From contig JAJYRE010000015.1 in the NCBI GenBank assembly GCA_021794235.1, positions 1 through 47,233 of the forward strand: DNA of 47,233 nt. The letters run 5' to 3'. The stretch is from Nanobdellota archaeon (lineage in GTDB: Archaea; Nanobdellota; Nanobdellia; Parvarchaeales; Parvarchaeaceae). The stretch's first letter is position 1; every line of letters starts with the position of its first letter. This document shows positions 20,234 to 44,020 of this stretch, one piece after another. The notes below the pieces were generated by a model, which was given only the letters and a program-made list of their open reading frames with translations, had not been told where the DNA came from and searched no databases. The position numbers and the translations under genes are program-made.

Positions 20234-20322
20234 ACAAGTCTATAATTTGCGTCGCTTAAATTCTTTTTAAATGTCAATGTTGCTTATATAAAATACAAAT
20301 ATGTTTATATGAATGTTCGGGC

Positions 20323-20396: not shown

Positions 20397-20466
20397 TTCG
20401 AGAAAAGGGGAAAAGAAAATCGATAAGAGACGTCAGAGTAAATTTTTAAAGCAGTTAACACTCTTT

Positions 20467-20802: not shown

Positions 20803-20845
20803 TAATCAATATGATTATCTCCTACTTTTTAATCCTTTCAAAAAG

Positions 20846-20876
20846 TCAATGCCCCATTTTGCCACTTCAATGCCCC
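20846..20876 (+). repeat. Direct repeat pair upstream of the nuclease fragment/integrase
   Basis: TCAATGCCCC occurs at 20846-20855 and 20867-20876, exactly 21 bp apart (two helical turns), ending 4 nt before the ATG at 20881. Position and spacing suggest an operator or arm-type recombinase binding site; function is inference. Confidence 0.4.
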
Positions 20877-20880
20877 TTTT

Positions 20881-21024
20881 ATGGTAAATCATAACTACAT
20901 AGCTGGCCGTCGTTTCGAGTACAAGGTCAAGCACCTCTACGAGCAGGCAGGCTATACGGTATTAAGGACGTCAGGGTCGCACGGCTTCGCAGACTTTCTA
21001 ACTGAGAGGAGAACCTATGACTGA
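20881..21024 (+). CDS. Truncated Holliday-junction-resolvase-like (PD-(D/E)XK) N-terminal fragment
   Basis: 47 aa. The pattern GRRFEYKVKHLYEQAGYTVLRTSGSHGFADF matches the start of archaeal Hjc-like nucleases (Gly-Arg-x-x-Glu-x-x-Val helix, then strand and Ser-x-Gly-Ser-x-Gly-x-x-Asp). The first acidic residues are present but the E-x-K strand that follows in the family is missing. The frame ends at a TGA overlapping the integrase start by 8 nt (20881-21024 versus 21017). Either a truncated nuclease coupled to integrase translation or a remnant. Confidence 0.55.
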   Translation: MVNHNYIAGRRFEYKVKHLYEQAGYTVLRTSGSHGFADFLTERRTYD

Positions 21025-21879: not shown

Positions 21880-22085
21880 AAAGCCAAAAATTAGATGGAA
21901 TTCGAATAACTAAAATATTTTCTTCCTATTGCTTTATTCAGTTAATTTTTGTCCAATTTATTTTACTTCAATTTGTATTAAATAAAACTCTAGAAGGATT
22001 AGTGATAACTTCTCTAACATTTTTGGCTTTTGATATCTTATTTCTAGTGATAATAATAAAGAAATTAAAAAAGATATACAATTAA
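21876..22085 (+). CDS. Tiny membrane protein, element cargo
   Basis: 69 aa with two hydrophobic segments (about residues 14-34 and 40-61) and a Lys-rich C-terminus, giving a hairpin topology. The ATG overlaps the integrase stop (ATGA), so it is translationally coupled to it. No family recognised. Base composition is strongly A/T-rich. Confidence 0.6.
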   Translation: MKSQKLDGIRITKIFSSYCFIQLIFVQFILLQFVLNKTLEGLVITSLTFLAFDILFLVIIIKKLKKIYN

Positions 22086-22128
22086 TAGAGTAAGTAAAAT
22101 ATTAAAAGTAAGAGGTCATACAAAAATT

Positions 22129-22335
22129 ATGAACATACAGCAAATTTTGTTTTTGCTTGGTATAATATGCTGGGTGCTCTTAGTTGTAATAGTTTTATCT
22201 TTTATAGCAGTAGGTATCTCCAATACAAGTGTAATTTTTGATGCACTTGTTGGTGCGCTAGTCTTTTTTGGCTTTGTTTTTATAATTGCAGGGGGCGTCC
22301 TATCAAAACTTCGACATGGATTTAATAAATTATAA
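22129..22335 (+). CDS. Tiny two-span membrane protein, element cargo
   Basis: 68 aa; two transmembrane helices (about residues 7-29 and 38-58) with a short charged tail SKLRHGFNKL. Starts 43 nt after the previous gene. No recognised family; possibly a paralog in style of its neighbours. Confidence 0.55.
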   Translation: MNIQQILFLLGIICWVLLVVIVLSFIAVGISNTSVIFDALVGALVFFGFVFIIAGGVLSKLRHGFNKL

Positions 22336-22365
22336 AGTCTGTCTAGGCAGGTTCTAAGGCAACTT

Positions 22366-22563
22366 ATGAACAAAAAAGGACAAGTCGAAGTGATTTTAAG
22401 TTGGCTGCTTGTACTTATATTTGAGGGGATAATAATTGCACTTGCGGAAACAACAAATTACTCTGCTACAATTAACCTGATTATCCATATAGGTGTACCA
22501 GTTGCATTTTTGGGGAGTGATATGGCGGCTTTCCTTGCTTTAGCAGGAGTTTCAAATGGTTAA
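22366..22563 (+). CDS. Tiny membrane protein with class III-like N-terminus, element cargo
   Basis: 65 aa. The N-terminus NKKGQVEVILSWLLVLI resembles a class III signal (KG before Q, then a hydrophobic run), although the Glu is at +3 rather than +5. A second hydrophobic segment spans ~37-60. It ends before a convergent minus-strand operon. Function unknown. Confidence 0.5.
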   Translation: MNKKGQVEVILSWLLVLIFEGIIIALAETTNYSATINLIIHIGVPVAFLGSDMAAFLALAGVSNG

Positions 22564-22604
22564 TATTTTTATCAGAACTCAAGATTTAACGCCACTTAAA
22601 CTAT

Positions 22605-23066
22605 CTATCTTCCAATTTCGTTTCTAACATAACCTACTTTTTGTAATGCTGTATTAGTTTGCAAGTTATCATAATGGCAGATGGCTGCTTTAAATTTGTT
22701 TGCTTTAACACTAAAGTAAGTAGTATGTTCTGTAGCTTTTTTAGGCTTTACTTTTGTAATATAATCTGGACCAATATAATTATCTGCTGGCTCAATTATT
22801 CCATTAGTTGTTTGTCTATTACCCATTAATCCATCACCAACCTCTCCATGTAATTCTAAAGAACTGTAATCATTATGTACGGAAGTTTCAAGTGTACCAT
22901 CTGCTTTTTCTAAAACTAAACACTTAAAATTAAAGATTTTTATCCATGATATCTTCCTATCTGTATCCATCTGTTTGGGTCTTACATACCCAACAGAACC
23001 ACCTAAACTTTTTCCAAATATGCATGCCATAGGAAACTTAGAGGGGTGGTACAATTTCTCTTTCAT
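22605..23066 (-). CDS. Hypothetical protein, element cargo
   Basis: 153 aa, soluble, predicted mostly beta, with several aromatic and Gly residues and no recognised motif. Third gene of a minus-strand operon (start 6 nt after the winged-helix gene stop). It could be a structural or DNA-interacting element protein; nothing in the sequence decides. Confidence 0.55.
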   Translation of the reverse strand: MKEKLYHPSKFPMACIFGKSLGGSVGYVRPKQMDTDRKISWIKIFNFKCLVLEKADGTLETSVHNDYSSLELHGEVGDGLMGNRQTTNGIIEPADNYIGPDYITKVKPKKATEHTTYFSVKANKFKAAICHYDNLQTNTALQKVGYVRNEIGR

Positions 23067-23072
23067 ATCTCA

Positions 23073-23324
23073 CTACAGATCTCTTAGGAATCCTTCTTTC
23101 TTTAATTCATCGCACGCTTTAATCACTAAACTAGGTGCAACATTAATTTTTTCTGCAATATCTGAAATGTAAGCTTTTTTATGAGTTTTAAAGTATATTT
23201 TTATCTTATTTTTGATTTGTCCTAGTTCTTGCTCTTTTGCTAGTTCATTACTGGTCATGGCTGTAACGGCCATTGCTAGACTTATAGTATTCACCCCACT
23301 GCTAATACGTTCAGTTAGTTCCAT
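23073..23324 (-). CDS. Winged-helix DNA-binding protein, element regulator candidate
   Basis: 83 aa. Residues ~36-83 form a winged helix-turn-helix: IKNKIKIYFKTHKKAY, then ISDIAEKINVAPSLVIKACDELKKEGFL, in which the second and third helices fit a MarR/ArsR-like reading of DNA. The N-terminal 35 residues are helical. Located between two unrecognised genes with 1-nt and 6-nt gaps. A role as element repressor is inference from size and context. Confidence 0.65.
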   Translation of the reverse strand: MELTERISSGVNTISLAMAVTAMTSNELAKEQELGQIKNKIKIYFKTHKKAYISDIAEKINVAPSLVIKACDELKKEGFLRDL

Positions 23325-23325
23325 T

Positions 23326-23724
23326 CTACATCCCTATTTTTTCACCAAATGCTCTTAAGTCTTTGGCTAAACTTCTTTTTTCCTTTTCACTGCTTTCCAT
23401 AAGATTTGTTAACCTTTTGTTGAATGATGATGCCTGAATCAAAATATTTATTAGGCGTGCTTGTGCATCAGGACCCATTTTTTTACTTAGTTCCGCTAAG
23501 ACTAATGGATTTTTTTGTATTTCTTGTATAGATAAAAAATCTTTTGGATATTTTTTTTGAAGGTCTGCCAACATATCAATAGCATTAGCCGTTTCACTAA
23601 AGAGCTTAGTATAAAATACACCGAAATCTTTAATGAACTTATCCTTTGTGTCTTCTCCCTTAGAACCTCTTTCAGTCTTTTTCATCATATTATATTTATT
23701 TTTCTGCTTATTTAAAACTAACAT
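23326..23724 (-). CDS. Hypothetical helical protein, first gene of element operon
   Basis: 132 aa, Lys-rich, predicted all-helical with coiled-coil tendency at the C-terminus (about residues 95-130). An internal Met-Met at residues 13-14 is an alternative start. On the minus strand TCATATAAG lies ~25 nt before the ATG at 23724, consistent with a leaderless transcript for the three-gene operon. No family recognised. Confidence 0.55.
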   Translation of the reverse strand: MLVLNKQKNKYNMMKKTERGSKGEDTKDKFIKDFGVFYTKLFSETANAIDMLADLQKKYPKDFLSIQEIQKNPLVLAELSKKMGPDAQARLINILIQASSFNKRLTNLMESSEKEKRSLAKDLRAFGEKIGM

Positions 23725-23784
23725 TATGTTAGGAATCTTATCTTATATGAACTTATTTATATTAACAAGCTTTTCTAATTAAAT

Positions 23785-24380
23785 ATAGAAAAACTGGTAA
23801 AGAATTATGTTACATTTTTAAATTTAATCTTACTTATTTTTCTATTGACAGTGTTTATAACAGATACATTCTGGAGATTATCTGGCCCAATCAATATTGT
23901 AGGGACAGCGGTGGCAATTGCACTTCTTGCACTTTTAGAGGTTTATTTTTTAAAATAAGAGGTGACCCTAAGAAAAATCAGATTAAAGCGCTTATACTAA
24001 AATCAAAATTTAAACGGGCTTTAGAACCATCAATTTATCTTGAATTAGTTGCATTATTTACATTCGGGGTACTAGGAATATACACTGCAGTTACGACCCT
24101 TAATCAAGCCGAGTCTTTATTGTATTTTACAGCTTTTTCCCTTTTCGCCCTACCTCTTATAAACGCACCAATATTTTTAGCACATTTACATAAGAGAATG
24201 AATAGAGAGAGCACTAAGAAAAATTATTCTTTGTTATCATTTTTAGCTATTGTTATGGTGGTAATAACTTTCCTAGTTAATTATAACTCGCCCATTAACA
24301 ATCTACTTTATGATGGAGTTATATGGATTTTCGCTATAATTATGACTGTGGGGGCAGAACATTTATCTGATGTAATCTAA
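23785..24380 (+). pseudogene. Membrane protein, apparently frameshifted, no clear start
   Basis: One frame (open from 23779 to the TAA at 23956-23958) encodes a Lys-containing start and two hydrophobic helices ending LLALLEVYFLK. A second frame continues directly with a basic loop (KKNQIKALILKSKF) and then about four hydrophobic helices to 24380. Within that frame the only obvious start is a TTG at 24120, which would cut the first helix. The shift falls at a TTTTTTAAAA run (23947-23955), a typical indel site, so a single ~195-aa multi-span protein broken by a 1-nt loss is the simplest reading. No ATG was found at the front. Two separate small genes remain possible. Confidence 0.45.
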
Positions 24381-26371: not shown

Positions 26372-26857
26372 TTAACTGCCTGTTCCTGCTATTGTACCTG
26401 AGGCGTTGTATGTCTGAGTACCCAATGTTGTGGTAACATTGAATTCTACAATACCCGCTCCGGAGAATTTTACTCCAGTTGTACATGTAATCCCATCTAC
26501 AGCAACAGTAAATACGCTGCTAGACTGTACAGTAGAAGGTGTGAAGGTTGGGGTTTTTACAGAACCGCTCATTCCACTACTGGGGGTTACAAATATCTTC
26601 CATAGCTTTGCGCTAGTAGCTCCATTAGGCAATCCACCAACTGAAAATGCTACTGCAAGACTTGTACCAGTGGTACTTGCATTACATACAGTTGCGGTTG
26701 GCGTGAATGGGCTAAAGCCGCTAGATGTCGAAGATACACTACTCGAAGGGCTGAAAATACCCATCGAGTACAGGACAGCAGCTACGATTACAATGATTAG
26801 TATGGCCCAACCATACGTCATCATGTATTCCAATGCTGACTGTGCTCTTTTTACCAT
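26372..26857 (-). CDS. Type IV pilin-like protein with class III signal peptide
   Basis: 161 aa. The N-terminus KRAQSALEYMMTYGWAILI is a textbook class III prepilin signal (Q-S-A-L-E at +1 to +5), followed by a ~20-residue hydrophobic helix. The rest is Ser/Thr/Val/Gly-rich with two Cys and N-x-S/T sequons, as in DPANN pilins. It has its own strong TATA box and T-rich terminator and no operon partner, so it is probably a highly expressed major subunit (inference). Confidence 0.88.
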   Translation of the reverse strand: MVKRAQSALEYMMTYGWAILIIVIVAAVLYSMGIFSPSSSVSSTSSGFSPFTPTATVCNASTTGTSLAVAFSVGGLPNGATSAKLWKIFVTPSSGMSGSVKTPTFTPSTVQSSSVFTVAVDGITCTTGVKFSGAGIVEFNVTTTLGTQTYNASGTIAGTGS

Positions 26858-26888: not shown

Positions 26889-27551
26889 TTATGCAACAGA
26901 GAAGCTCTGGCTAGCCATTATAGCCGTGTTATTGTCGGATTTAGCAACGAGCGTATAGGCTCCTGCAGGCAGTGTCGGAAGGTACAGATATGCATCGTAT
27001 ATGTATGGCGTCATGCCGTCATCCAATTTCAGCAGGGTACTATTCGGATACTGCAGATAAAGCGTGGCATTCTGCGGGAATCCGCCGACATAAACGAAGT
27101 ACGGATAGAAGTTGCTGGTGTAATTTGCGTATACGTACGCTATAGAAACGCTGTTATTGTACTGGTAAAGCGCAAGGTCGGACGGTTCGAACGATTCGTT
27201 CTGGGTCGCCGTAGTACTGGCACCGCAGGACACTATGTTCTGTCCTGCCAGAAACCTGGAAGGTATCTTCTTGTTGGCGTAATTATACACGATTATCACC
27301 CCTTTGGAGACGTTTATGGTATAATTCTGGTAAACTGTGAAGTTCTGAAGCGGCAGATACACTACCGTAGACAGGCCGCCGGCTTCCGTAACGGAGTTTA
27401 TCGAGTTAGCAACTAGAGTGCAGACTCCGTTCATCTCTCCTGCGCCGGAATTATTGGAGGATATTGAAGTGAAAAAGGCTATAAGGAAGCCTATTACGAC
27501 CAGTGCAAGCGCTACGTCTATGACGAATTCGAACGAGAATTGCGCTCTCAT
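26889..27551 (-). CDS. Class III signal peptide surface protein
   Basis: 220 aa. MRAQFSFEFVIDVALALVV fits the class III signal (cleavage before Q, Glu at +5) with a hydrophobic helix to residue ~27. The ectodomain is Asn/Tyr-rich with many N-x-S/T sequons and two Cys, ending in a beta-sandwich-like segment. It is upstream of the pilin gene on the same strand with a 31-nt gap that holds the pilin promoter. Its own TATA-like ATAAAATA is near 27579, shared in position with the divergent gene at 27605. Confidence 0.78.
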   Translation of the reverse strand: MRAQFSFEFVIDVALALVVIGFLIAFFTSISSNNSGAGEMNGVCTLVANSINSVTEAGGLSTVVYLPLQNFTVYQNYTINVSKGVIIVYNYANKKIPSRFLAGQNIVSCGASTTATQNESFEPSDLALYQYNNSVSIAYVYANYTSNFYPYFVYVGGFPQNATLYLQYPNSTLLKLDDGMTPYIYDAYLYLPTLPAGAYTLVAKSDNNTAIMASQSFSVA

Positions 27552-30932: not shown

Positions 30933-31742
30933 ATGGGAGAATTCAGGCTTAATCCTGAAACCCTGTCGTTTAGTGTAATCGCTAAAGACAGTGTTGAATG
31001 CAAGGCGTGCTCGAATAAATCAGAGAGCATGGCGTCTTTCCCTTTCAAGAAGGATTACGTCAGGATCTACGAGGTAAAGGACACCGTGCAGCCTTCAAAT
31101 TACAGCCTAAACGGCCAGTTCTTCAAATCATCAGTAGGTCACGGATACGAGGAGATAATAGTGGATTCTCCGGCGCACGGGGACAAGTTCAACGAATATT
31201 CCATAGAGGAAACCGAGCTGCTTTTCAATATAATAGATAAAAGGGTTGCGGAGATACTGAAGTACAATATAGGAAAAAATATCTGCATTACAAGAAACCT
31301 GAACGGCCACGGCTATTTTGACCTCCTGGCCCTTCCGATACCGAAGGTGGAGGAGAGAAACTGCTTCCAGTGCGACTACGTAAAGAGGGTGGACAACAGA
31401 GAAGTGCACAGGACCGAAACAGTGTCCGCATACGTGCCTTTTACCCCCATGTCTGACGTTCAGATAAATATCACTCCTGTAAAGCACGTCTCCATAGTGG
31501 ACATAGATCCAGTTATACTGTTCGATATGTCAAGTACATTAAAAAAGGTCCTTGCACAGTTCAAAGACAACAACGTTACCGTCGCCCTTATGGAGCACGG
31601 GGACGGACACTTCCACCTGGAAGTGCACGGCGGGAAACTGGACGGATTTGAATTGCTTGGCATAGAAAGAATAACCGTTGCACCTGAAATGCTGGCAAAG
31701 GAGCTGAGAGAAAAGCTGGGATATGACAAGAAAGATAAGTAA
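30933..31742 (+). CDS. Degenerate GalT/HIT-superfamily paralog
   Basis: 269 aa from the ATG at 30933 (a TTG at 30900 inside secD is also in frame). The layout follows the two GalT genes here: N-terminal C-K-A-C, VGHGYEEIIVDSPAHGDK (GalT: GYNEVVIETPEH), NGHGYFDLLALPIPKVE at the catalytic site and GHFHLEVHGG near the end. In GalT the motif is H-P-H-x-Q. Here the nucleophilic His is Tyr128 and the Gln is Asp130, so uridylyl transfer is unlikely. It could be a noncatalytic or repurposed sugar-nucleotide-binding protein. It sits in the secFD operon and overlaps the next gene by 20 nt. Confidence 0.7.
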   Translation: MGEFRLNPETLSFSVIAKDSVECKACSNKSESMASFPFKKDYVRIYEVKDTVQPSNYSLNGQFFKSSVGHGYEEIIVDSPAHGDKFNEYSIEETELLFNIIDKRVAEILKYNIGKNICITRNLNGHGYFDLLALPIPKVEERNCFQCDYVKRVDNREVHRTETVSAYVPFTPMSDVQINITPVKHVSIVDIDPVILFDMSSTLKKVLAQFKDNNVTVALMEHGDGHFHLEVHGGKLDGFELLGIERITVAPEMLAKELREKLGYDKKDK

Positions 31743-32610
31743 ATTTACCCTGCTGCTATTTTCGGTAGTAATCCTGCTCTCCATCTCGGTTGTCTTCACG
31801 TACGTCGACGGCAACAATTCCTTCTCTTCATTGCAGTCTTCAAACAATGCGCTCGTCGGGTCATTTATGTCCGCTTATTCGATACCGAACACAACCTCTA
31901 TAGATCAGTTTTACGGAAACCAGGTTAACAACACCATCGTGGTAAACTGCAACAACGAACTGATACCGTCGTTTCCAGAGCTTCCATACGGATATCTCGG
32001 TACTCAGAAAGGCAACGAATACTCCACCATAATAAAGGATATGGGTGTGGTATCTATATGCAGTTTTCTTAACTCGAGCAAGTGCGGCGCTGCGGAAGCC
32101 AATCTCTCTGCGTACATATCCGGATTCAACAGGACAGTACTCGATCTGGAGTTCAACCAGACAAAATCTGAAATAGATTACCTATATCATGAGGTTGTGG
32201 TGTCAAACCTTACGAACCTGTCTGCAGTCAAGCCGATAATCTACGATGAGGCCCTGTTCAACACCACCGACTTCTCAAACGCTTCGGACATAGCCAATGC
32301 CCTCGTATCTATGAAGTCACTCGAACAGAACACTGCAGATTTCAAAAACGGCACAGTCGTGTCGAACGACATATACCTTTACGGGCCATTCCAGTTCAGA
32401 ACCGTTCATCTGATAAATGCCACACCCTGCGGATCTCCGAACAAAGTCTTCAACCTTATAACCAATTCTACAGAGTTTGTAAACCCCGTGTATGCTTCCC
32501 TGTACTCGTGGCTTAAGGCAAACACCACGAACATCTGCATCTATAGCGGCAGTAACCAGTGCGGCAGTGCAGTAATGAAGCAACTCGGTGCATCGTTCTA
32601 TGTCAAATAA
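31723..32610 (+). CDS. Secreted, membrane-anchored glycoprotein-like protein
   Basis: 295 aa. A basic start and hydrophobic helix (~9-28) form a signal anchor. The ectodomain has more than a dozen N-x-S/T sequons and seven Cys. No family recognised. The gene overlaps the GalT-like gene by 20 nt and the next secreted-protein gene by 11 nt, so it belongs to the secFD transcript. It may be a substrate or helper of the exporter (inference). Confidence 0.65.
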   Translation: MTRKISKFTLLLFSVVILLSISVVFTYVDGNNSFSSLQSSNNALVGSFMSAYSIPNTTSIDQFYGNQVNNTIVVNCNNELIPSFPELPYGYLGTQKGNEYSTIIKDMGVVSICSFLNSSKCGAAEANLSAYISGFNRTVLDLEFNQTKSEIDYLYHEVVVSNLTNLSAVKPIIYDEALFNTTDFSNASDIANALVSMKSLEQNTADFKNGTVVSNDIYLYGPFQFRTVHLINATPCGSPNKVFNLITNSTEFVNPVYASLYSWLKANTTNICIYSGSNQCGSAVMKQLGASFYVK

Positions 32611-33121
32611 ATCCGGTAAAAGAAAGATTTTCTATGCATATACCGGACTTATCCTGTTTCTTGTGCTTGTAACAGTGTTTCTTGTTACTAGGATAAACTA
32701 CTTCGATTCGCTCTATGCCTTTCATACGACTTACATGAACGTTTCATCTCTATGCAGTTCCGGGAAACCTTCGATGGTCCTGTTCTACGGGCCGAATACA
32801 ACGTCCGTCAACACGGAGCTGGGCGCGTTTGTAAACACCACTTCCCTTTTCGGCGTGTGGTCATCAAATCAGTTTTACAGCGGATATTTCTGCGCCTGGA
32901 AAGTAAACATAAGCGCCTTCAATCAGAACGCATCCTCGCTGGCGGCGCCGGCAAACGTTATTCCTCTATTCAACCAGCTCTCGCAGAATAGGGTGCCGCT
33001 CGTAGTATTCAACGGCGAGTACTACAAGATAGGCGGATTTACAAATTCCACCCAGGCAAATTACGATATGCTGAAGTACATATGCCTGTCGATAAATGAC
33101 AGTGCACCGCAGTGTGCTTGA
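32600..33121 (+). CDS. Membrane-anchored thioredoxin-fold-like protein
   Basis: 173 aa from the ATG at 32600 (an in-frame GTG at 32588 is possible). Signal anchor at ~9-29, then KPSMVLFYGPNTTSV resembling the thioredoxin beta-alpha start with the active-site C-x-x-C absent. Toward the end VPLVVFNGEYYKIGGFTN resembles the cis-Pro strand and Gly turn of thioredoxins. Four Cys elsewhere could form structural disulfides. It might bind or chaperone secreted proteins; redox activity is doubtful. Confidence 0.6.
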   Translation: MSNKSGKRKIFYAYTGLILFLVLVTVFLVTRINYFDSLYAFHTTYMNVSSLCSSGKPSMVLFYGPNTTSVNTELGAFVNTTSLFGVWSSNQFYSGYFCAWKVNISAFNQNASSLAAPANVIPLFNQLSQNRVPLVVFNGEYYKIGGFTNSTQANYDMLKYICLSINDSAPQCA

Positions 33122-34993: not shown

Positions 34994-35425
34994 ATGATCA
35001 GGGCACAGATGTCGCTTGAGATAGTGATTATTTACGGCCTGGCTATCGTATCCATAGGCCTGGCCGTGGCGATTATCTTCACGTTTCTGCCGGCTTTCTC
35101 TCAGACTCCGGCCACCGCCACTTATTCGGGATTCCAGGGCTTTAAGATAACCGCAGTCGGCTACTATGCCCCATACAATGTATTCTACATAAAAATACAG
35201 AATCTCCTCAACGAGAACATAGAGGTGAAACTGATATCCCTTGTAGTCGGCTCCCAGAACTCTACCGGATGCGGGGGTGCTTATCTGCAGCCGCTTGACT
35301 ACTACGAGTGCAACATAACCTACTCCAATCCTGGCTCCTTCTCCGGACTGGTGTATATATACTACACTCCGACGAACATTTCATCCGCTCCTGTCATAGC
35401 ATCCCGCGGCTCCGTGTACACTTAG
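34994..35425 (+). CDS. Class III signal peptide surface protein
   Basis: 143 aa. MIRAQMSLEIVIIYGLAIV fits the class III motif exactly (Q-M-S-L-E), then a hydrophobic helix to ~31. The ectodomain has two Cys and four N-x-S/T sequons and is predicted beta-rich. Stands alone between tRNA-Thr and the eL15 gene. Confidence 0.82.
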   Translation: MIRAQMSLEIVIIYGLAIVSIGLAVAIIFTFLPAFSQTPATATYSGFQGFKITAVGYYAPYNVFYIKIQNLLNENIEVKLISLVVGSQNSTGCGGAYLQPLDYYECNITYSNPGSFSGLVYIYYTPTNISSAPVIASRGSVYT

Positions 35426-35462
35426 ATAGTTATTTATACTTCCAGATTTTAGATTAATTCCT

Positions 35463-35867
35463 ATGGGAGCATTCAAATACATAAGAGAGAATGAGAAAAA
35501 GCTGTACAAGAACAAGGAAAGAGTGAAACAGATTCTTACAGATGCGAGGAGCGGCTCCCTTGTAGAAAGAATCGAGAGGCCGACTAAACTATTCAGAGCA
35601 AAGGAAATTGGCTACAAGGCAAAGCCCGGATACACAGTGGTTAGAGTCAAGGTAGGCAAAGGAAGCTTCAGGAGAGAGAGGCCGAATCACGCAAGAAGGC
35701 CGAGTAAATCAGGAATATTCTACAATCTCAGTATAAGCAAGCAGAGGATAGCGGAGAACAGGGCTATGAAAAGATACAGCAACCTTGAGCTTTTGGGATC
35801 ATATTTCATAGTAGACGACGGACAGAACAGCTGGTACGAAGTCCTTTTGAAGGATTCTAAATTCTAG
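35463..35867 (+). CDS. rpl15e: Ribosomal protein eL15, C-terminally shortened
   Basis: 134 aa. FKYIREN, VERIERPTKLFRAKEIGYKAKPGYTVVRVKV, the basic RRERPNHARRPSKSG and YSNLELLGSYFI...WYEVLL are the eL15 core in order. Archaeal eL15 is normally ~190 aa and continues after WYEV-L-x-D with ~55 residues that contact rRNA; here the frame stops seven residues after WYEV. No continuation resembling the missing part was found in the other two frames immediately downstream. Confidence 0.85.
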   Translation: MGAFKYIRENEKKLYKNKERVKQILTDARSGSLVERIERPTKLFRAKEIGYKAKPGYTVVRVKVGKGSFRRERPNHARRPSKSGIFYNLSISKQRIAENRAMKRYSNLELLGSYFIVDDGQNSWYEVLLKDSKF

Positions 35868-35936
35868 GCGGCTGGGACGCACAGCATTGCCTTCTGACAA
35901 TCAATTATATTATAAAGAAAACGTACAATATCCTAT

Positions 35937-36443
35937 ATGGATGTAGAGCAGTTCGTGCTTTTTGAGGTATTGTTTGGGATTGTAATATCCGTCCTTCTTT
36001 TCTTTACATTCTATCAGAATTTTTCGGCTGTGCTTCCGGTCGGATGCAACAACAACGATATACTCGAAAATCAGTTCACAAGTGCACAGTATGGATATCC
36101 GAACAGGCTGGAGGGGACTCCATTGTTCCGTTGCTATGGTACCAATGCCTGTTACAACCAGTCGTCTGCTTATCAGACGTGCCTTAGCAACGAATGCTAC
36201 TACCTCAACTGGCATAACGGGCAGGGCAGCTACTCTGCAGTGCAGAACTGTATAGCAGCACCGCCGCAGACAGTGCTGAGTGCATGCAGGGTCGTATCAC
36301 CATCCAACACCGCCGATCTTTTCAGCTGCTACCAGAGTACGGTGATTGCAAACAACGCGACGATGATAGGGAACTGTGATATGAGTTCGCCGGTGTGCGT
36401 AAAGGGTGACAGTCCTCAATGTCCGCCCTGCATAGGTCAATGA
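35937..36443 (+). CDS. Cys-rich membrane-anchored surface protein
   Basis: 168 aa. Membrane anchor at ~8-28 preceded by an acidic MDVEQFV start, then a Cys-rich ectodomain with about 11 Cys, Asn-rich with several sequons, ending CVKG...CPPCIGQ. First gene of a five-gene plus-strand operon. No family recognised. The high Cys content points to several extracytoplasmic disulfides. Confidence 0.65.
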   Translation: MDVEQFVLFEVLFGIVISVLLFFTFYQNFSAVLPVGCNNNDILENQFTSAQYGYPNRLEGTPLFRCYGTNACYNQSSAYQTCLSNECYYLNWHNGQGSYSAVQNCIAAPPQTVLSACRVVSPSNTADLFSCYQSTVIANNATMIGNCDMSSPVCVKGDSPQCPPCIGQ

Positions 36444-36610
36444 TTATTATGAACAACAAAGGGAGTGTGGAGTGGAGAATAACGTGGCTGATACTCGTCA
36501 TAATAACGATCGTCGTTGCAATAACCCTGATAGTACTGCTGTTCTACGCCAGCTCAAGCGGCCCGTCCCCCTTCTCATTCTTCGGTAACCTGCTTGGAGG
36601 AGGAGTCTGA
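36440..36610 (+). CDS. Tiny single-span membrane protein, pilin-like N-terminus
   Basis: 56 aa from the ATG at 36440, which overlaps the previous stop (ATGA). Alternatives in frame are ATG at 36419 and 36449. NNKGSVEWRITWLILVIITI resembles a class III signal with Ser replacing Gln at +1, followed by one hydrophobic helix (~16-37) and a short Gly/Ser/Pro tail. Similar in size to the four tiny proteins at 41624-42262 on the other strand. Confidence 0.6.
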   Translation: MIIMNNKGSVEWRITWLILVIITIVVAITLIVLLFYASSSGPSPFSFFGNLLGGGV

Positions 36611-37506
36611 TGGAGGAGGGAATAATCCTAGCAATAATATCCATCCTGCTGGTGCTCATAGCTGGACTCGTACTGGCGACCTTTTCATTTTCAATATTCA
36701 CATCCGTGAGCACGATAAATTTCGGATTCAGATGCTTTGGCGCTTTTGCCGAGTACAATCTGATAGATTCCTTCATATCACCGCTTACGTACATTACGTC
36801 CCATTTCGGATTCGGGTCGCTTTACGTCAGTCCGACCCAGGCGGCACAGGTTCAGAACTCCTGCATCCAAGACGCCAACGTAGCCTTTAAATCCACCTCT
36901 GCTCTCGGAACAAGCGTGTTCTCGGAGGCTTCATCATGTTTTAGCCTGTTTCAAGGTGCGACATCCTCCGTAAGTAACGGCATACTAGGCAGTTCCAGAC
37001 TGAACAGGGTATTTGAGTGTTATTACGGGCAACTGAACAACCAGGTAAGCGGAGGAAACATAGATTACAGCAGTCTGATAAGGTACATGGACAGCACCTA
37101 TAACACATCCTATCCGCTTCAGGTTGTATTCATAACGAATGGCAGTGGCGGCTTTGCCAAGTACGTATCCCCTTCTAGTTCAGTCATTAATTCCACCTAT
37201 CTACTGGCTTATTTCGGCTATCCGTCCGGAAATCCCCCGCAGGACTGCAGCATTCCGTTTCAGGAGCAGTGCACCCTCACTTCCAGTTATCAGCAGCCCG
37301 TAATAAATCCGGCAAAATGCAGTTACAGCAATCAGACGGTCTCGGAGGCGTATAGCCTAGTCAGCTCTCTCAGCAACGGGAACCAGTACCAGTCCGTGAG
37401 TAATCTCAGCGGCGGATGCACCTATTACGTACCACAGTGCGGATACCTTACAAATTCGATGGTGTACCAGCAGAGCCGTATTTTCGTCTGCATACCCACC
37501 AAATAA
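36610..37506 (+). CDS. Cys-rich membrane-anchored surface protein
   Basis: 298 aa. Hydrophobic anchor ~5-33 and a Ser/Asn/Tyr-rich ectodomain with about 10 Cys and several N-x-S/T sequons. Start ATG overlaps the previous stop (TGATG). No family recognised; style matches its neighbours. Probably an extracellular structural component. Confidence 0.65.
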   Translation: MEEGIILAIISILLVLIAGLVLATFSFSIFTSVSTINFGFRCFGAFAEYNLIDSFISPLTYITSHFGFGSLYVSPTQAAQVQNSCIQDANVAFKSTSALGTSVFSEASSCFSLFQGATSSVSNGILGSSRLNRVFECYYGQLNNQVSGGNIDYSSLIRYMDSTYNTSYPLQVVFITNGSGGFAKYVSPSSSVINSTYLLAYFGYPSGNPPQDCSIPFQEQCTLTSSYQQPVINPAKCSYSNQTVSEAYSLVSSLSNGNQYQSVSNLSGGCTYYVPQCGYLTNSMVYQQSRIFVCIPTK

Positions 37507-37535
37507 TTATATAACCAAAGAGTTTATATTAGATT

Positions 37536-39032
37536 ATGCCTGAGACTCCCGGAGAGAATTTTGTCTTTATAGTTCTTGGTATAATATTCATGGTTTTCAT
37601 AATCATAGTGTTCGGAGCATTCATGTTTCTAGGATTCAGCCTGTCAAATTCTACGACGTGCTACGCCAGTTCGCAGTTTTCCAACTTCTTCTATAACGGG
37701 CTCTGCTTCACAAATTTCTTATGTTTAAGCTCGACACTGCAGGCTTACCACATCAATCCGCCTTCTTTCGGCTGTTCACCATCCACACAAACATTTTCGG
37801 GCAGCGCGTCAAATTCCAGCGTATACTCGGCGGTCGGGACGCAGCTTTCTGAGTGCTGGAACAAATACGGTGGAAGCTCCGGATTGACAGTATCGCCGGG
37901 AGCGCCACGGCTATGCGGGGTGATCAACCTTAACGTTAACAACAATATAACATTCAACAGCCTTACGAATTATCTTAAATCCACGCCTTTCACAACCCAG
38001 GTCAGCTGTATAAATCACACCGCCGTTCAGTCGTGTAACAATCCACTGTCCTCAACCAATCCCAGCGGATTCTACTGTGATATAAACAATCCTAGCCAAT
38101 GCATCGCGAACAGCAGCAACTTTTTTAGCTGTTTTTCCCAGTCTGGTTATACAGCCTTTCCGCAGGGTTATTCACTTACGACAATACCTCTTTCTAGCAA
38201 TACCGCGGTAGACACCGCCGTTAATAATCTGTCGCAATTCCTGTGCTCCGCCTCGGAAGGCTGCTCGTTCAATTCTCAGCTAAACACCTGCACAAAACCG
38301 GACGGCTCGACGATAGGCTGCACCGATCCGTTTACCAACTTCTGCAAACTTAACGGCAGCTCATCAAATCCAAATAGCAAGTACGTATGTTCTGTCGGAT
38401 ATGATTCCATAGTAAAGTCGTACACAGTACCCAGTTCATGCCAACTCAGCGAACCTGTGAAGCCTACATCCGTTGTTAACGTGTCTTACTTCAACTACCT
38501 TCTTCCGGGGCAGGTTGTACAATACAGCATAAAGAACACAACGTCGGGAAATTCGGAAGGCGTCCAGATATACAACAATACCTCCATAAGTAAATCCCAG
38601 CTTTACATAGTCTATCTGAATTCACTCGTCGGAACCAGGTTCCCTCCCTATCCCGTTAAACTGCCATCCGAATGCGTGCCTATAACATACTACTCAAATT
38701 ACCCTACAAGCGGACTGGAATACGAGTGCTCCAGGGCCATACTGACATACGGTCTACTGGTAGGAAGGGGCGGTGTGGCTGCAGGAGCAAGATTCGGTGT
38801 GACCGCCACAATCAGCACGGTAGGCTGCTCCTCAAACACTTTTTGTAAGCAATATCTGCTTACGAATGCGGCCACAGCTGCATCGGCTTTATTGCTTAAG
38901 ACCAGCGGTCTCGCACAGTGTGCCTCGTCAATTTATTATAGTCTTGCCTCAAGCGTATCTTCCGTTACGAGTAAGTCTACGACGGGATTCCTTGGGATGA
39001 ATCAGATGTATATATGCGCAGTAACAAGTTAA
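37536..39032 (+). CDS. Large Cys-rich membrane-anchored surface protein
   Basis: 498 aa. N-terminal anchor (~8-32), then a Ser/Thr/Asn-rich ectodomain with more than 20 Cys and many sequons. The C-terminal portion (~405-498) is Ala/Gly-rich and somewhat hydrophobic (LLVGRGGVAAGARFG), perhaps a second membrane-associated segment. It is the largest product of the operon and overlaps the next gene by 19 nt. No family recognised. Confidence 0.65.
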   Translation: MPETPGENFVFIVLGIIFMVFIIIVFGAFMFLGFSLSNSTTCYASSQFSNFFYNGLCFTNFLCLSSTLQAYHINPPSFGCSPSTQTFSGSASNSSVYSAVGTQLSECWNKYGGSSGLTVSPGAPRLCGVINLNVNNNITFNSLTNYLKSTPFTTQVSCINHTAVQSCNNPLSSTNPSGFYCDINNPSQCIANSSNFFSCFSQSGYTAFPQGYSLTTIPLSSNTAVDTAVNNLSQFLCSASEGCSFNSQLNTCTKPDGSTIGCTDPFTNFCKLNGSSSNPNSKYVCSVGYDSIVKSYTVPSSCQLSEPVKPTSVVNVSYFNYLLPGQVVQYSIKNTTSGNSEGVQIYNNTSISKSQLYIVYLNSLVGTRFPPYPVKLPSECVPITYYSNYPTSGLEYECSRAILTYGLLVGRGGVAAGARFGVTATISTVGCSSNTFCKQYLLTNAATAASALLLKTSGLAQCASSIYYSLASSVSSVTSKSTTGFLGMNQMYICAVTS

Positions 39033-39487
39033 ACACGGTAGCGACTTCGACGGTAGAGTATGTCATAATAGTCATACTTCTGGTGGTCTTTGTGGCGATT
39101 GGGGCTATGATTGCATTTTCGGTTTTTCATTTCTCTCTGCTTGGGATAGGCCATACGAGCCCGTCACTGACGAGCAATCCGGCGCCGTGCAATATATCAC
39201 TCCAGAACATAAGCACTGCGAGTAAACCTAATTACTTCAGGCTAACGGTTTCCGAGGGGAGCCTGGGACTTAACTACACCGTGTTTGCAGGCATAGGCAA
39301 CGCCTATGTTTCTCCGACCAGGGTAGGTAACTATGTAGTAGGATTGGGCGTTTTCTCCCAGGATTTCCAGCTGGCAGCCCCGTCCAACGTTTTTGTGGCA
39401 AATACAACCGGCAGCTCGGTAGCGGTGGACGGCGAAACTTATAATGCCGGCGGAGAATGTACCAGTATAGTCCAGATCAGCGGTTGA
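39014..39487 (+). CDS. Pilin-like protein with class III-like signal
   Basis: 157 aa. TVATSTVEYVIIVILLVVF keeps Val-Glu-Tyr and the hydrophobic helix of class III prepilins, but Gln at +1 is absent. The ectodomain is beta-rich with two Cys and sequons. Last gene of the plus-strand operon; its 3' end overlaps the convergent helicase gene by 11 nt. Confidence 0.65.
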   Translation: MRSNKLNTVATSTVEYVIIVILLVVFVAIGAMIAFSVFHFSLLGIGHTSPSLTSNPAPCNISLQNISTASKPNYFRLTVSEGSLGLNYTVFAGIGNAYVSPTRVGNYVVGLGVFSQDFQLAAPSNVFVANTTGSSVAVDGETYNAGGECTSIVQISG

Positions 39488-41009
39488 TGAAGAAATTCAG
39501 GGTACCGTCGTTGCGAAGCGTCTCCGGGTTCTCTTTTATATTCTTTATTATCTTCTTCATCTTCGATTCCTTTCTTTTCGACACCCAGTAATATCCCTCA
39601 TCGCTCGTGTCCTTTGTTATCAGTATGAATATCCTTCCGGCGTCGAACCTCCCTACTCTTCCCCTTCTCTGTATCGATCTTATCGCACTCGGCACAGTTT
39701 CATAAAATACCGCCACATCAACCCCTTTTATCGACATGCCCTCCTCGCTGACACTGGTTGATACTAGGACGTTGTAAACTCCAGCCTCGAAGTCCTTTAT
39801 TATATTGACCTGTTCCTTCTGCGATAGGCCTCCTTTCCCCTGTCCTACGAACTTCACCGCATTCACTCCCTTAACGCCCTTTATGGCGTTGTAAATGACG
39901 TCAACTGTATCCCGATACTGCGTAAAGATTATGGCCTTCTGCTCCTTATCGAACTCCTTCTCCAGTATCTCTCTGAGTTTTCCCAACTTGGGGTGCTCAT
40001 CACCGTTCTTCAGCATGTTCTCCGCGTCTTCGCACACTTTAAGGAATCCGCTGTTTGAAGCTATCTCCTTGTCGGATTTTGTTTTTCCCTCCATTATCTT
40101 CGCAGTGAAATTTACAAATGATTCAACACTCTGCGTGGACAGGAGGTTGTAGGCATGATAGAGTTTCATAAGCTTGGATGCTAATATTATCCCTCTTATA
40201 GTGTAGAAGCTGCGCTTGCCGCTTATCATCTGTTTCTGCAGGCTTTTTTGCAGCATAAGTACCGAAACTCTGGTTATCCTGTTTCTAGGCGTATCCTTGT
40301 AGAACCCGGCCTTCTGGAGGTCGTCTATGTTGCTTTTTATTACCGCGTCCAGCGAGGATATCAGATTTTTCAGGCTTTCGCTTACATCAACTCTTACCTC
40401 CTCTATCATTTTTGACTTTATGTAAGGGCGGACGTCTATGTCCTCGTCGCTTCTTATCTCTACGTTTGATATCCTTAGGTTGTTGCAGATCTGTCTTATT
40501 TTGTCGCTGTCGGAGGCGGGTGATGCCGTGAGTCCCAGTATCAGCGGGTTTCCTGCCCTGTAAACGTACTCCGATACTATTTTTACATATGCGTAGTTGC
40601 CGACAGCGTGGTGGGCCTCATCTATCACTATCACGCTGAATTCCCTGAGGTCTATCACCTTCTTCTCCATATCGTTCTCTATCGTCTGGGGAGTCGCGAA
40701 TATTATCTGCGATGTCTCATATATCCTTTTTCTGTTCTCCTTGGAGACTGTTCCGCTTACCACGTCCCCGCTCAGCTCTGATATGTGATCGAACGTCCTT
40801 CTGTGCTGATTTATCAGCGGCTTTGTGGGTGCTAGAAAAAGCGCTTTGCTCCCCGGAAACTTCTCGAGTCTGTAGTCTATTACAAGTGCGCTTATTACGG
40901 TCTTTCCCAATCCTGTAGGTAGAACAACAAGCGTGTTTTTGTCTTTTGCGCTCTCAAAAATGCTGTTCTGGTATTCTCGGAACGCTACTTTTCCCTTTTT
41001 AATGAACAT
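39477..41009 (-). CDS. Hef-type SF2 DNA helicase without nuclease domain
   Basis: 510 aa. Motif I PTGLGKT (31-37), FLAPTKPL (Ia), DEAHHA (II, from 130), LGLTASPAS (III), IIFTQYRDT (IV), SVSEEGMSIKGVD (V) and QRRGRVGR (VI) place it with Hef/FANCM helicases. Full Hef has an XPF-type nuclease plus HhH domain after the helicase (~750 aa); here the protein ends after motif VI. Hef acts at stalled or branched replication forks. It starts within the GINS stop (TAATG), so the two are coupled. Confidence 0.88.
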   Translation of the reverse strand: MFIKKGKVAFREYQNSIFESAKDKNTLVVLPTGLGKTVISALVIDYRLEKFPGSKALFLAPTKPLINQHRRTFDHISELSGDVVSGTVSKENRKRIYETSQIIFATPQTIENDMEKKVIDLREFSVIVIDEAHHAVGNYAYVKIVSEYVYRAGNPLILGLTASPASDSDKIRQICNNLRISNVEIRSDEDIDVRPYIKSKMIEEVRVDVSESLKNLISSLDAVIKSNIDDLQKAGFYKDTPRNRITRVSVLMLQKSLQKQMISGKRSFYTIRGIILASKLMKLYHAYNLLSTQSVESFVNFTAKIMEGKTKSDKEIASNSGFLKVCEDAENMLKNGDEHPKLGKLREILEKEFDKEQKAIIFTQYRDTVDVIYNAIKGVKGVNAVKFVGQGKGGLSQKEQVNIIKDFEAGVYNVLVSTSVSEEGMSIKGVDVAVFYETVPSAIRSIQRRGRVGRFDAGRIFILITKDTSDEGYYWVSKRKESKMKKIIKNIKENPETLRNDGTLNFFINR

Positions 41010-41581
41010 TATACTCCTACTGCTTTGCCGCTCTTAATGAGTATGTCGGCTACGTCCGTGTCTATTTCTATTACGTTTGGGAACCCGAAAGGCCCGTAGG
41101 ACTTGTTGTTTCTCCACACAAATTTCGGGATATCCGCTATAACCTTTATTATCCTCTTATCGGAATCGCTGTCAGTCTCTATCTTCTGGAGCCTCTTCGG
41201 CTCTACGTTTTTTACCTGGTCCAGAAGCGCTGATTTGTGCTGATTTATTATATCGAGAAGGTTGTCGAACAGGATCAGCTCCTTTGACATCATATTGCCC
41301 CTGGCCTCCTCGCTGTTTATCCCGAGGACAGCCATGTTCGATATCTTTATTATCCTAATGTTTATTATCTGGTCCAGCGTGTTAAAGGCGTTTTTTATCT
41401 GCGTGCTTATATCGTCTATCTTCTTCTGGTCGCTTATCTTCTTTGCCTCCTCCAGGGAGTTTTTGTTTATTGCTATGTACTCCTTCATCTCTCCAAAAAG
41501 ATCATCATTCAGTTTTGTCAGGGTTCTGCCGTCCTCCTGCTCCTGTCTTCTTATCCTGACGAACTCGCTGTAAGTAATCAT
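41009..41581 (-). CDS. GINS complex subunit (archaeal GINS, Gins51-like)
   Basis: 190 aa. A helical domain (about 1-130) begins ITYSEFVRIRRQEQ, then a small beta domain at the C-terminus (VIADIPKFVWRNNKSYGPFGFPNVIEIDTDVADILIKSGKAV), the order of Gins51/Sld5-type subunits. GINS links MCM helicase to the replisome. On the minus strand TTTATATTTTA lies ~25 nt upstream of the ATG, giving a promoter separate from the tiny membrane genes. Coupling with a Hef-like helicase suggests fork restart (inference). Confidence 0.72.
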   Translation of the reverse strand: MITYSEFVRIRRQEQEDGRTLTKLNDDLFGEMKEYIAINKNSLEEAKKISDQKKIDDISTQIKNAFNTLDQIINIRIIKISNMAVLGINSEEARGNMMSKELILFDNLLDIINQHKSALLDQVKNVEPKRLQKIETDSDSDKRIIKVIADIPKFVWRNNKSYGPFGFPNVIEIDTDVADILIKSGKAVGV

Positions 41582-41623
41582 ATCTATAGTGATGACAAAT
41601 TTAAAATATAAACTTAAAACCCT

Positions 41624-41785
41624 CTAATACGCTTTTGAAAAGCTGGAAAACAGGGACTTTTGGAAACCCGCAAAGGCGTTAATTATGTCGTTCACTATCG
41701 TTGTGGGTCCAATCAGGAGGATATAGGTTATCACCAGTATGACTCCAAGTACTATCGCTATTATGTAAAACCATATCGCTTCCAT
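41624..41785 (-). CDS. Tiny single-span membrane protein (53 aa)
   Basis: Complete frame with start ATG at 41785. One N-terminal hydrophobic helix (about residues 4-26), then a polar helix NDIINAFAGFQKSLFSSF. Starts 3 nt after the preceding gene's stop. Last of four consecutive tiny membrane genes. No recognised family. Confidence 0.6.
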   Translation of the reverse strand: MEAIWFYIIAIVLGVILVITYILLIGPTTIVNDIINAFAGFQKSLFSSFSKAY

Positions 41786-41788
41786 AAA

Positions 41789-41935
41789 CTATACAGGTAA
41801 AGACGGGAATTGGGGGAGGAGATGCTCCAGAGTAGACGGTGAGTAGAGCGTAAGATAAAATATAAGTACAATTATCAGGATTATCAGAGTTATTATTATC
41901 AGAAGCATGAAGTCCGATACTCCCTGGTTACGCAT
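41789..41935 (-). CDS. Tiny single-span membrane protein (48 aa)
   Basis: Complete frame. RNQGVSDFMLLIIITLIIL resembles a pilin-type leader (basic start, then hydrophobic run ~9-27), followed by a short Pro/Ser/Leu tail. Its start overlaps the end of the preceding gene by 8 nt. No recognised family. Confidence 0.6.
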   Translation of the reverse strand: MRNQGVSDFMLLIIITLIILIIVLIFYLTLYSPSTLEHLLPQFPSLPV

Positions 41936-42101
41936 AGCTGCCTGGGTTCGATCCTATCAGGGATGATATGAATCCCTGAAAGAGCGAGGATATCCTGTAC
42001 GGGGTGAAAAACTCCAGAAATATTATAATCAGGAACACTCCTATGATTATCACTATTATGTAGGCGAAGAACGCGCTTATCACTCCTCTGTTGCCCTTCA
42101 T
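41928..42101 (-). CDS. Tiny single-span membrane protein (57 aa)
   Basis: Start ATG at 42101 chosen because it overlaps the previous stop (ATGA); an in-frame ATG at 42119 would add six residues. KGNRGVISAFFAYIIVIIIGVF is a basic, Gly-containing leader followed by a hydrophobic helix, similar to class III signals but without the Glu. The tail is polar. Confidence 0.6.
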   Translation of the reverse strand: MKGNRGVISAFFAYIIVIIIGVFLIIIFLEFFTPYRISSLFQGFISSLIGSNPGSYA

Positions 42102-42262
42102 ATTCCGCCCGATAGCCACTTGAATGAGAACAGCTGCACGATTGCCGTGCTTATGTTACTGCCGCCGTGGGACAGGTATACCGCTATCGCTATACCGACA
42201 AGAAGCACTATTATCGCCAGTATTATCGCGATTATCTCAGTTATAGGCATCTGTGCTCTCAT
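42098..42262 (-). CDS. Tiny pilin-like membrane protein (54 aa)
   Basis: Complete frame. MRAQMPITEIIAIILAIIV resembles a class III signal (RA before Q, Glu at +6 instead of +5) with a helix to residue ~29 and a short polar tail with an N-x-S sequon. It begins 6 nt after the 583-aa gene stop, so the genes form one operon. Product size after processing would be near 51 aa, like minimal pilins. Confidence 0.62.
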   Translation of the reverse strand: MRAQMPITEIIAIILAIIVLLVGIAIAVYLSHGGSNISTAIVQLFSFKWLSGGI

Positions 42263-42268
42263 AGTAAA

Positions 42269-44020
42269 TCAGTATATCGTGAACTGTGAAAGGTTGTTAA
42301 GGAGTTTCAATCTCCTCTTGAACTCGTTGTACATCCCTTCCGCTTCCGAATTTGCAACGAATAACCCCACTTCTATTCCGTTCTTTATGTTACCCCTGTG
42401 GAGCCTCTTGTTCACAATCATCTCATAGTAGTCCGCGAAGTCTTTCTCTTCCTTCTTTCCACCCCTCTTTATAGGCTCACCGAGCTTTACTATCGATTTG
42501 GAAATTCCGAAGAAATCATCCTTGAACGATCTGTATATCTCGTCAAATGCGAGTGCGCTCTGCGGCTTCTTGGATTTTTCCTTGAGTTTTCCCGCCTCAT
42601 ATTCGTCGGCTTCTTTTATGTAGGCATCAAGGTCCTTCTTTATTACGTCAAGCGAATGGTATATCGCCTGATCGACACCGCTGAATACGGTCTTGTTTGC
42701 ATAGGCGATAAGTGCCTTCTGGTACAGGTACCATTCTTCCGGTGTGAAGCACATGGGAGTCAGGTTTACCCTCAAAGCCCCTTCATACTGCGGCGACGGC
42801 GGCTGCGGCAGCTCAGACAGGAACGCCTGCTTCTCACGGAACGAAAAACTTGCTTCTATCGCCGATACGACAACAGGTCCGTAATTTTTTATACGTTTGT
42901 ATAGGTATGACCTGCCCTGCTCTTTGTATCCCCTGGTTAGGAGTTTGCCTGCTATGCTCTTCAGGGCCACTTTAGAAGGGAGTTCTGGCCCTTTTTCACC
43001 GAAAAGTTTTTTGTATTCTACATCGAATTCTTTAATGTATATTTTTTTGAATCCTGTCAGATTTATTGTGAATACCGATGTTTCAAATATGTCCTGCGAC
43101 GGCGCTTTCAAAAGGTCTTTTCCCTGCATAGGGCCTTTCAGGCCTATTCTCTTAAGTATACTCATGTACTGAGACGTCCATTCGACGTACATGTTGAATG
43201 AGCTCATCTGGCTTTTCAGGTACTGCAGCAGCATCATCTTCCTGTTTTTCAGGTCCTTCCCGTTGATGTCTTTCCATCCCTCATACTCTATGTATCTGTT
43301 CTTCAGTATATTCTTGTACTGTTCGTTTCTCTGGAGGTTTGCTACGTCTTTGAGGCTCTTCACCGTGTAAAAGACGGCCACTATGTCTATGAATCCCGGA
43401 CCACCGCCCTGCGCCTGGCTGGCGGATCTCGACAGAGAAGAAAGGCTTGCCCCTCCTTTTCTTGCGTCTACGTTATCCAGAAATATTCTTTTCAGGGCGA
43501 GTTCTGCCGCCTCTGCTTTTTCCTTTTCCTTCGATTTTGAAAGGTCGTAGAACTGAAGGTTCTTATCCAGTTCCTTGAGCTCGTATGTCAGGGCTATTAT
43601 CGATTTAAGTACGGTGTTTATGCTACCTAACAGCTGCATGGTCCTGTCCTCGAGCGTCTTCTTTTTGTCGAGATATATGTTCATTAGGTTCGAAATGGCT
43701 GAAGGATCTATCGTTTCATTTGTCTTTAAGGAGCTGTAACCCAAAGATCCGAACATCTGGCCGACTGACATATACTCACTCTGGAACTGATGCCTTTTTC
43801 TTATGTCCATATTGACCGTATATCCGCCAGGATTGCCTACAAAACCAGGGTCTGGTATCTCTTCACTGTTTTTATACCTGAAATCGATTTCACCCTTATA
43901 ATGGGTTTCTACGCCGGATGCTATTGCCTTCAGTTCACCTATGTAGGCACTTACATCGGTGTCTTTAGTCTCTTTAGAATTCAGCTTTTCTACTATCTTT
44001 TTCAATTCAGCTACGTTCAT
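42269..44020 (-). CDS. 583-aa protein of unknown family, first gene of tiny-membrane-protein operon
   Basis: Soluble by sequence, mainly helical with Lys/Glu-rich segments (coiled-coil tendency ~1-30, 110-185 and 465-490) and a Gly/Ser-rich stretch (~195-215, SLSSLSRSASQAQGGG). A mixed region with aromatic residues (EALRVNLTPMCFTPEEWYLYQKAL-like, ~420) follows. No catalytic motif or Walker box was seen and no family recognised. Start ATG is followed by a Lys-rich helix. It leads the operon of four single-span proteins, so it is a candidate cytosolic scaffold for a surface structure. Confidence 0.65.
   Translation of the reverse strand: MNVAELKKIVEKLNSKETKDTDVSAYIGELKAIASGVETHYKGEIDFRYKNSEEIPDPGFVGNPGGYTVNMDIRKRHQFQSEYMSVGQMFGSLGYSSLKTNETIDPSAISNLMNIYLDKKKTLEDRTMQLLGSINTVLKSIIALTYELKELDKNLQFYDLSKSKEKEKAEAAELALKRIFLDNVDARKGGASLSSLSRSASQAQGGGPGFIDIVAVFYTVKSLKDVANLQRNEQYKNILKNRYIEYEGWKDINGKDLKNRKMMLLQYLKSQMSSFNMYVEWTSQYMSILKRIGLKGPMQGKDLLKAPSQDIFETSVFTINLTGFKKIYIKEFDVEYKKLFGEKGPELPSKVALKSIAGKLLTRGYKEQGRSYLYKRIKNYGPVVVSAIEASFSFREKQAFLSELPQPPSPQYEGALRVNLTPMCFTPEEWYLYQKALIAYANKTVFSGVDQAIYHSLDVIKKDLDAYIKEADEYEAGKLKEKSKKPQSALAFDEIYRSFKDDFFGISKSIVKLGEPIKRGGKKEEKDFADYYEMIVNKRLHRGNIKNGIEVGLFVANSEAEGMYNEFKRRLKLLNNLSQFTIY

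Follow-up and report, generated by a model that had tools for sequence, protein, structure and literature searches.

What do two facing groups of small, membrane-anchored and often cysteine-rich proteins do in an archaeon of the Nanobdellota? The question is raised by positions 34,994 to 44,020 of contig JAJYRE010000015.1 (assembly GCA_021794235.1), a stretch of 47,233 nucleotides that was analyzed at its full length and is referred to here as the window; it is contig C21 of a 715-kb genome that is 78% complete. The genes in question are named p168, p63, p298, p498 and p157 on the plus strand and t54, t57, t48 and t53 on the minus strand, the latter next to a gene for a protein of 583 amino acids (aa). 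An earlier interpretation made from the nucleotide letters (the sequence-only reading) had proposed an extracellular fiber or cell-contact device, with its assembly ATPase elsewhere and the 583-aa protein at its center. Our comparison makes it highly probable that these nine small or anchored proteins together supply the subunits of a single type IV filament machine, resembling archaeal type IV pili (T4P), whose motor is encoded elsewhere: several of them have motor-linked homologues in distant relatives, and the window's own genome carries the orthologous motor pair and a prepilin peptidase. The fiber proposal is thereby supported, and its center has to be given up, as described below.

Linkage of the probable subunit genes to a type IV motor in distant relatives

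As the sequence-only reading had noted, no assembly ATPase (T2SSE) or platform (T2SSF) gene lies on the window's contig; the genome encodes two sets on other contigs, C22 and C25. Elsewhere in the class, outside the window's family, the subunits have homologues encoded directly behind genes for a T2SSE-type ATPase of ~750 aa and a FlaJ/TadC-like platform of ~690 aa with 8 membrane spans. The order in isolate B33_G15 (G053, locus L077) is ATPase, platform, p168, a tiny gene, a p298-like gene, p498, a t54-like gene and a t53-like gene, and a similar motor operon is present in CSMAG_1072 (L098) and Jingweiarchaeum (G036, L075), while only its start is seen in locus L113. Homologues of p168 directly follow the ATPase-platform pair in CSMAG_1072, B33_G15 and L113; those of p298 occur in the motor operons of CSMAG_1072 and L113, those of p498 in B33_G15, Jingweiarchaeum and CSMAG_1072, that of t54 in B33_G15 and Jingweiarchaeum, and that of t53 in CSMAG_1072 and B33_G15. 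Among the first 55 relatives, 8 genomes outside the family contain a p498-like match, which in six of them lies within ~7 kb of the motor ATPase.

The genome's own C22 ATPase (746 aa) is 50-51% identical to the ATPases of these operons, and the C22 platform (704 aa) is 37-38% identical to their platforms, both over nearly the full length. Since this orthologous pair lies on another contig, the window would hold the subunits of a type IV filament machine, with the motor encoded apart from them. Against the Pfam cut-offs, the T2SSE match lies above, as does the T2SSF match at C25, and that of the C22 platform lies below. A C22-type ATPase is encoded by 50 of the 55 relatives, and the named ones are metagenome-assembled genomes of Nanoarchaeota/Parvarchaeota, including Candidatus Acidifodinimicrobium mancum; acid mine drainage is where the Parvarchaeota-type group was discovered (PMC10134863). 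A prepilin peptidase (A24, PF01478) is encoded at C4:73771, with a match above the cut-off, and in 52/55 relatives; in two of them (G030, G031) its gene is near the pilin cluster. The window's genome also has, on C25, a coiled-coil protein whose gene is divergent from the motor genes in other families. Because subunits, C22 motor, C4 peptidase and C25 coiled-coil protein lie apart, the system appears scattered over at least four contigs.

Several further genes accompany the motor. Directly upstream of the C22 ATPase gene is one for an 800-aa predicted secreted protein without a Pfam match (L067, 2982-5384), and proteins of 802-829 aa are encoded at the same place in several relatives. In many genomes of the class, the motor is preceded by three consecutive 5-span proteins of ~170-190 aa (L077, 753-2330; L098, 464-2096; and others) and also by a divergent coiled-coil pair, neither of which belongs to a known family.

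Tiny, cysteine-rich and beta-sandwich proteins of the set

All open reading frames described by the sequence-only reading were recovered, and each plus-strand protein of the set is N-terminally anchored; one N-terminal hydrophobic span occurs in every one of them and in every small minus-strand protein, and none is present in the 583-aa protein. Scans of the subunits against Pfam, NCBIfam and PHROGs returned no meaningful family. The nine genes are kept in the same order in ~15 sampled relatives, t54 is present in 32/32 genomes of the family, and p498 in 31/32, the lone exception being 75% complete. The median ratio of nonsynonymous to synonymous differences per site (pN/pS) is 0.22-0.45 for each of the nine genes, the tiny ones included; it was used alone, as the corresponding ratio of substitution rates (dN/dS) printed as 0.000 reflects a saturated dS. 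All nine reading frames are real genes, kept under purifying selection.

Three of the plus-strand proteins are anchored and rich in cysteine: p168 (35937..36443, 168 aa), the first subunit gene of the set, p298 (36610..37506, 298 aa) and the very cysteine-rich p498 (37536..39032, 498 aa), all of them leaderless. For all three, the window offers no longer ATG, GTG or TTG start, since the reading frames were taken from their first start. The N-terminal region of p498 was detected in 62/378 genomes of the class and p168 in 34/378, a homology carried by invariant cysteines, and for both proteins a few homologues in distant genomes carry a [KR][GA] processing site. In many other class genomes, the motor is followed by 10-15 single-span proteins, some of 40-60 aa and some with dozens of cysteines; these loci have no detectable similarity to the window's subunits. 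In the single-contig genomes G037 and G049, the motor is kept and no subunit operon was seen behind it.

A second group comprises tiny class III-type, pilin-like proteins. On the plus strand, p63 (36419..36610, KG|SVEW) had been given as a 56-aa gene; it is present, but measures 63 aa from its first start and 53-56 aa from inner ATGs. The four tiny single-span proteins of the minus strand, some of which had been credited with class III-like leaders, are likewise real: t54 (42098..42262, 54 aa, [KR][GA]QMPxTE), t57 (41928..42119, 63 aa, or 57 aa from an inner ATG at 42101), t48 (41789..41935, 48 aa, with QG in the window copy) and t53 (41624..41785, 53 aa). A [KR][GA] site stands just before the span in 14/14 aligned rows of t54, 12/14 of t57, 10/11 of t48 and 14/14 of p63, and in 8/11 of p157 and 6/13 of t53. 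Six aligned t53 rows from the window's subgroup start with ME at the position that comes right after the leader elsewhere in the alignment; in this subgroup, the leader seems to have been lost. Profile comparisons among the tiny proteins hint at paralogy, but hydrophobic bias makes such scores unsafe, and this result is not relied on.

The remaining subunit, p157 (39014..39487, plus strand, 157 aa), is judged pilin-like from its alignment and its AlphaFold model, with an N-terminal helix followed by a beta-sandwich; in the model, residues 13-42 form the helix and seven strands come after it (mean predicted local distance difference test score, pLDDT, 78.7). Archaeal pilins usually consist of a long N-terminal helix joined to a beta domain. 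The best fold matches of the model are weak and generic FnIII/immunoglobulin-like domains, none at E <= 0.001, and no solved pilin is among the matches listed.

Taken together, these features suggest how the machine might work. The A24-type peptidase would remove the class III leaders from the tiny proteins, which the C22 ATPase and platform would then drive out of the membrane to form a helical bundle, in the manner of Flp/Tad pilins. In such a filament, p157 could contribute a beta-sandwich pilin, and the leaderless, cysteine-rich p168, p298 and p498 may form a disulfide-hardened extracellular base or tip. Attachment to host or other cells would be its likeliest role.

Other pilin-like genes were observed as well. 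Class III pilin-like proteins with RAQ/RSQ...E leaders are encoded in the window at 11617-12297 (plus), 26372-26857 (minus), 26889-27551 (minus) and 34994-35425 (plus), and are candidates for major pilins. The last of them, p143 (34994..35425, RA|QMSLE), is a conserved neighbor upstream of the set, across the L15e gene, and probably belongs to it. A further gene of this kind, likewise a candidate for a major pilin (L067, 9755-10240, minus), is next to the C22 motor. At 31723-33121, downstream of SecD/SecF-like genes, two anchored proteins of 295 and 177 aa without a Pfam match are encoded; they are conserved near the cysteine-rich set in the two relatives looked at (L072, L080), and the ...NCASC... 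of one relative's copy could be an oxidoreductase motif.

Gene order and the 583-aa neighbor

The window's genes were first described as two facing operons. This layout is present, with genes for GINS and a Hef-type helicase between the two arms, but relatives point to a single run that was later split. In G023 and G027 (L031 and L030), which belong to the same genus, p168-p63-p298-p498-p157-t54-t57-t48-t53-GINS-HEF lie on a single strand, with the 583-aa gene apart. The segment p157-t54-t57-t48-t53 is also unbroken in both other genera (G028, G030, G031 and also G029), and in G029 the 583-aa gene lies behind p298. Judged by gene order, the nine genes are ancestrally one unit, not two. We infer that the order in G023 was converted into that of the window by a single inversion of t54-t57-t48-t53-GINS-HEF, a polarity indicated by the uninverted linkage in other genera and distant families. 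One rearrangement would thus account for the facing arrangement of the operons as well as for what looks like an operon of the 583-aa gene plus four tiny genes. The sequence-only reading had named a lack of joint conservation of the two operons in relatives as the result that would speak against it, and they are conserved together.

The 583-aa gene itself (42269..44020, minus strand) has homologues in 54/55 relatives. Its adjacency to t54 on the same strand, for which the sequence-only reading had suggested checking co-conservation of the order with the four tiny genes, holds in 26/28 genomes of the genus and in 0/4 of the other two genera; it is also missing from G023 and G027. In most of the genus, this gene is divergent from one for a nucleotidyltransferase-like protein. 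Outside the family, the usual run has the 583-aa homologue at its head, followed by a coiled coil of ~190 aa, a TIM-barrel protein of ~550 aa (PF01261 in the one tested) and a nucleotidyltransferase-like protein of ~280 aa, and the orthologue of window gene 16096-17181 is often near it. On this distribution, the 583-aa, nucleotidyltransferase-like (possibly MNT-HEPN), TIM-barrel and coiled-coil genes form a class-wide conserved run that we judge to be separate from the machine.

Described earlier as helical, the 583-aa protein was modeled as mixed alpha/beta and mostly helical (mean pLDDT 76). A Pfam scan of 35 homologues gave no match worth keeping, no solved relative was found by sequence, no fold match of the model reached E <= 0.001, and a scan of genome contigs with the protein as query found nothing; the family's alignment proved too divergent to serve as a query. 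Table 1 of PMC6393860 offers two leads: the 583-aa protein could belong to NEQ484, a helical family specific to DPANN, and its nucleotidyltransferase-like neighbor to the MNT-HEPN family NEQ050. Its proposed place at the center of the device does not hold up, given its other conserved neighborhood, its location on another contig than the pilin genes in three genomes of the family (G028, G030, G031) and an adjacency that would stem from the inversion; from its genomic context, we consider it an unrelated neighbor of t54, not a part of the machine.

Rival readings, known systems and other parts of the window

The adjacency within the genus could still be taken to mean that the 583-aa protein is a scaffold or cytoplasmic hub, with the four tiny proteins as its partners. 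We regard this as very improbable, since that adjacency is lost in all four genomes of the other two genera and in G023/G027, the gene sits elsewhere in the class with its own partners, and one inversion accounts for its position. Assembly of the subunits by the second motor is improbable, though somewhat less so. That motor (L066, G000:C25, 6800-10252), which lies near genes resembling those of V/A-type ATPases, consists of a 506-aa FlaI/TadA-like ATPase and two platform genes (298 and 344 aa), is present in the genome and is, like the C22 pair, unlinked to the subunits; the motor linked to them in distant relatives, however, is the full-length orthologue of C22 (about 50% identity), with only 25-27% identity to the C25 ATPase.

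A more serious competitor, tentative as it is, is an envelope or pseudopilus device in which small class III proteins place surface proteins or secreted enzymes, as in the Sulfolobus bindosome (basEF and basABC). In the Bas system too, the genes form two small operons apart from each other, and no pili were seen for its small class III proteins (PMC2910488), and the secreted protein of 800-829 aa encoded upstream of the motor in the family would suit such a function; several beta-sandwich or cysteine-rich, putatively extracellular subunits are, however, more typical of filaments. Least plausible, to the point of being negligible, is an archaellum or DNA-uptake machine: the ATPase and platform superfamilies are shared, but the archaellin family PF01917 was found in 0/32 genomes of the family and ComEC (PF03772) in 0/55 genomes, with positive bacterial controls, and both the archaellum and a ComEC-dependent (Com) uptake pilus were rejected on these counts.

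Several points weigh against the preferred reading of one type IV filament machine. The short, hydrophobic homologues of t54, t53 and t48 are weakly scored in distant families, where t57 and p157 have no secure homologue. Within the window's family, motor and subunits were never seen on the same stretch, and the pairing of C22 with the subunits consequently rests on relatives; the second motor could serve them instead. By a pattern test in the family, class III leaders occur in 0/11 rows of p168, 0/11 of p298 and 1/12 of p498, which may not be pilins, and the glutamate at +5 of classic pilins is mostly missing from the tiny proteins. No filament of this machine has been observed.

Comparison with known systems defines which part of this machine had been described. 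The census of archaeal T4P by Makarova, Koonin and Albers in 2016 noted the assembly ATPase in nanoarchaea, and its pilins were not found (PMC4858521). With subclade 4F of that census, the system shares a VirB11/FlaI-family ATPase with a long N-terminal extension, a TadC-like platform and a coiled-coil protein; unlike 4F, no PilA-family major pilin is recognized at the window. Cysteines occur in this extension in the haloarchaeal homologue and in the ATPases of distant relatives, and the genome's own C22 ATPase is without them. Pairwise comparison of this ATPase gave 42% identity over 324 residues (226 bits) with a Haloterrigena plasmid ATPase, versus 27% (141 bits) with the genome's own TadA-like ATPase, which hints at a possible membership of 4F. 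Makarova et al. (2019, PMC6393860, Fig. 2A) had read unrecognized leader-bearing proteins beside FlaI/TadC genes in DPANN dark-matter islands as pilins of diverse kinds; unlike in those islands, motor and subunits are encoded apart here, and the analysis defines a single conserved set of subunits for several families. Tad/Flp pili are similar in their very small, almost all-helix pilins and TadA-like ATPase, but in the C22 motor a single platform of double length stands in place of TadB and TadC, the tiny proteins are without the Flp motif (glutamate at +5), and the genome has a separate FlaI/TadA-like motor. Sulfolobus BasEF/BasABC, whose substrates are sugar-binding proteins with class III leaders, also has its small class III proteins in an operon distinct from that of ATPase and platform, but no sequence match to the window's subunits was found; the archaellum has the same FlaI and FlaJ superfamilies, but no archaellin occurs in the family.

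The locus had been called undescribed, a description that is too broad for the ATPase and the DPANN pilin islands, which were known already along with archaeal T4P, and that stands for the subunit set of tiny pilins and leaderless, cysteine-rich anchored proteins. The wider proposal is that these are the missing subunits of the nanoarchaeal T4P ATPase, within a class-wide DPANN machine for host-cell contact. It would combine several helix-only pilins of 45-60 aa with disulfide-rich anchored proteins that have no leader and reach up to 500 residues, and in Parvarchaeota-type archaea its genes would be spread over four or more places in the genome; to this proposal we give about even chances. 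DPANN archaea depend on cell contact, and their surface machines are mostly undefined at the gene level; the locus and its relatives offer a concrete list of subunits, separated by this analysis from the 583-aa neighbor. Tiny reading frames, lost leaders and a motor at another locus explain why searches miss them. Pili-like links and penetrating appendages have been imaged between ARMAN and Thermoplasmatales cells (PMC4110969); several of these come from the partner cell, so the images do not establish that the structures seen are this machine.

Elsewhere in the window, the region at ~20200-24000 has a low GC content (down to 0.31), begins near a tRNA-Glu gene and carries a phage-integrase family gene (21265-21879); it is probably an integrated element.

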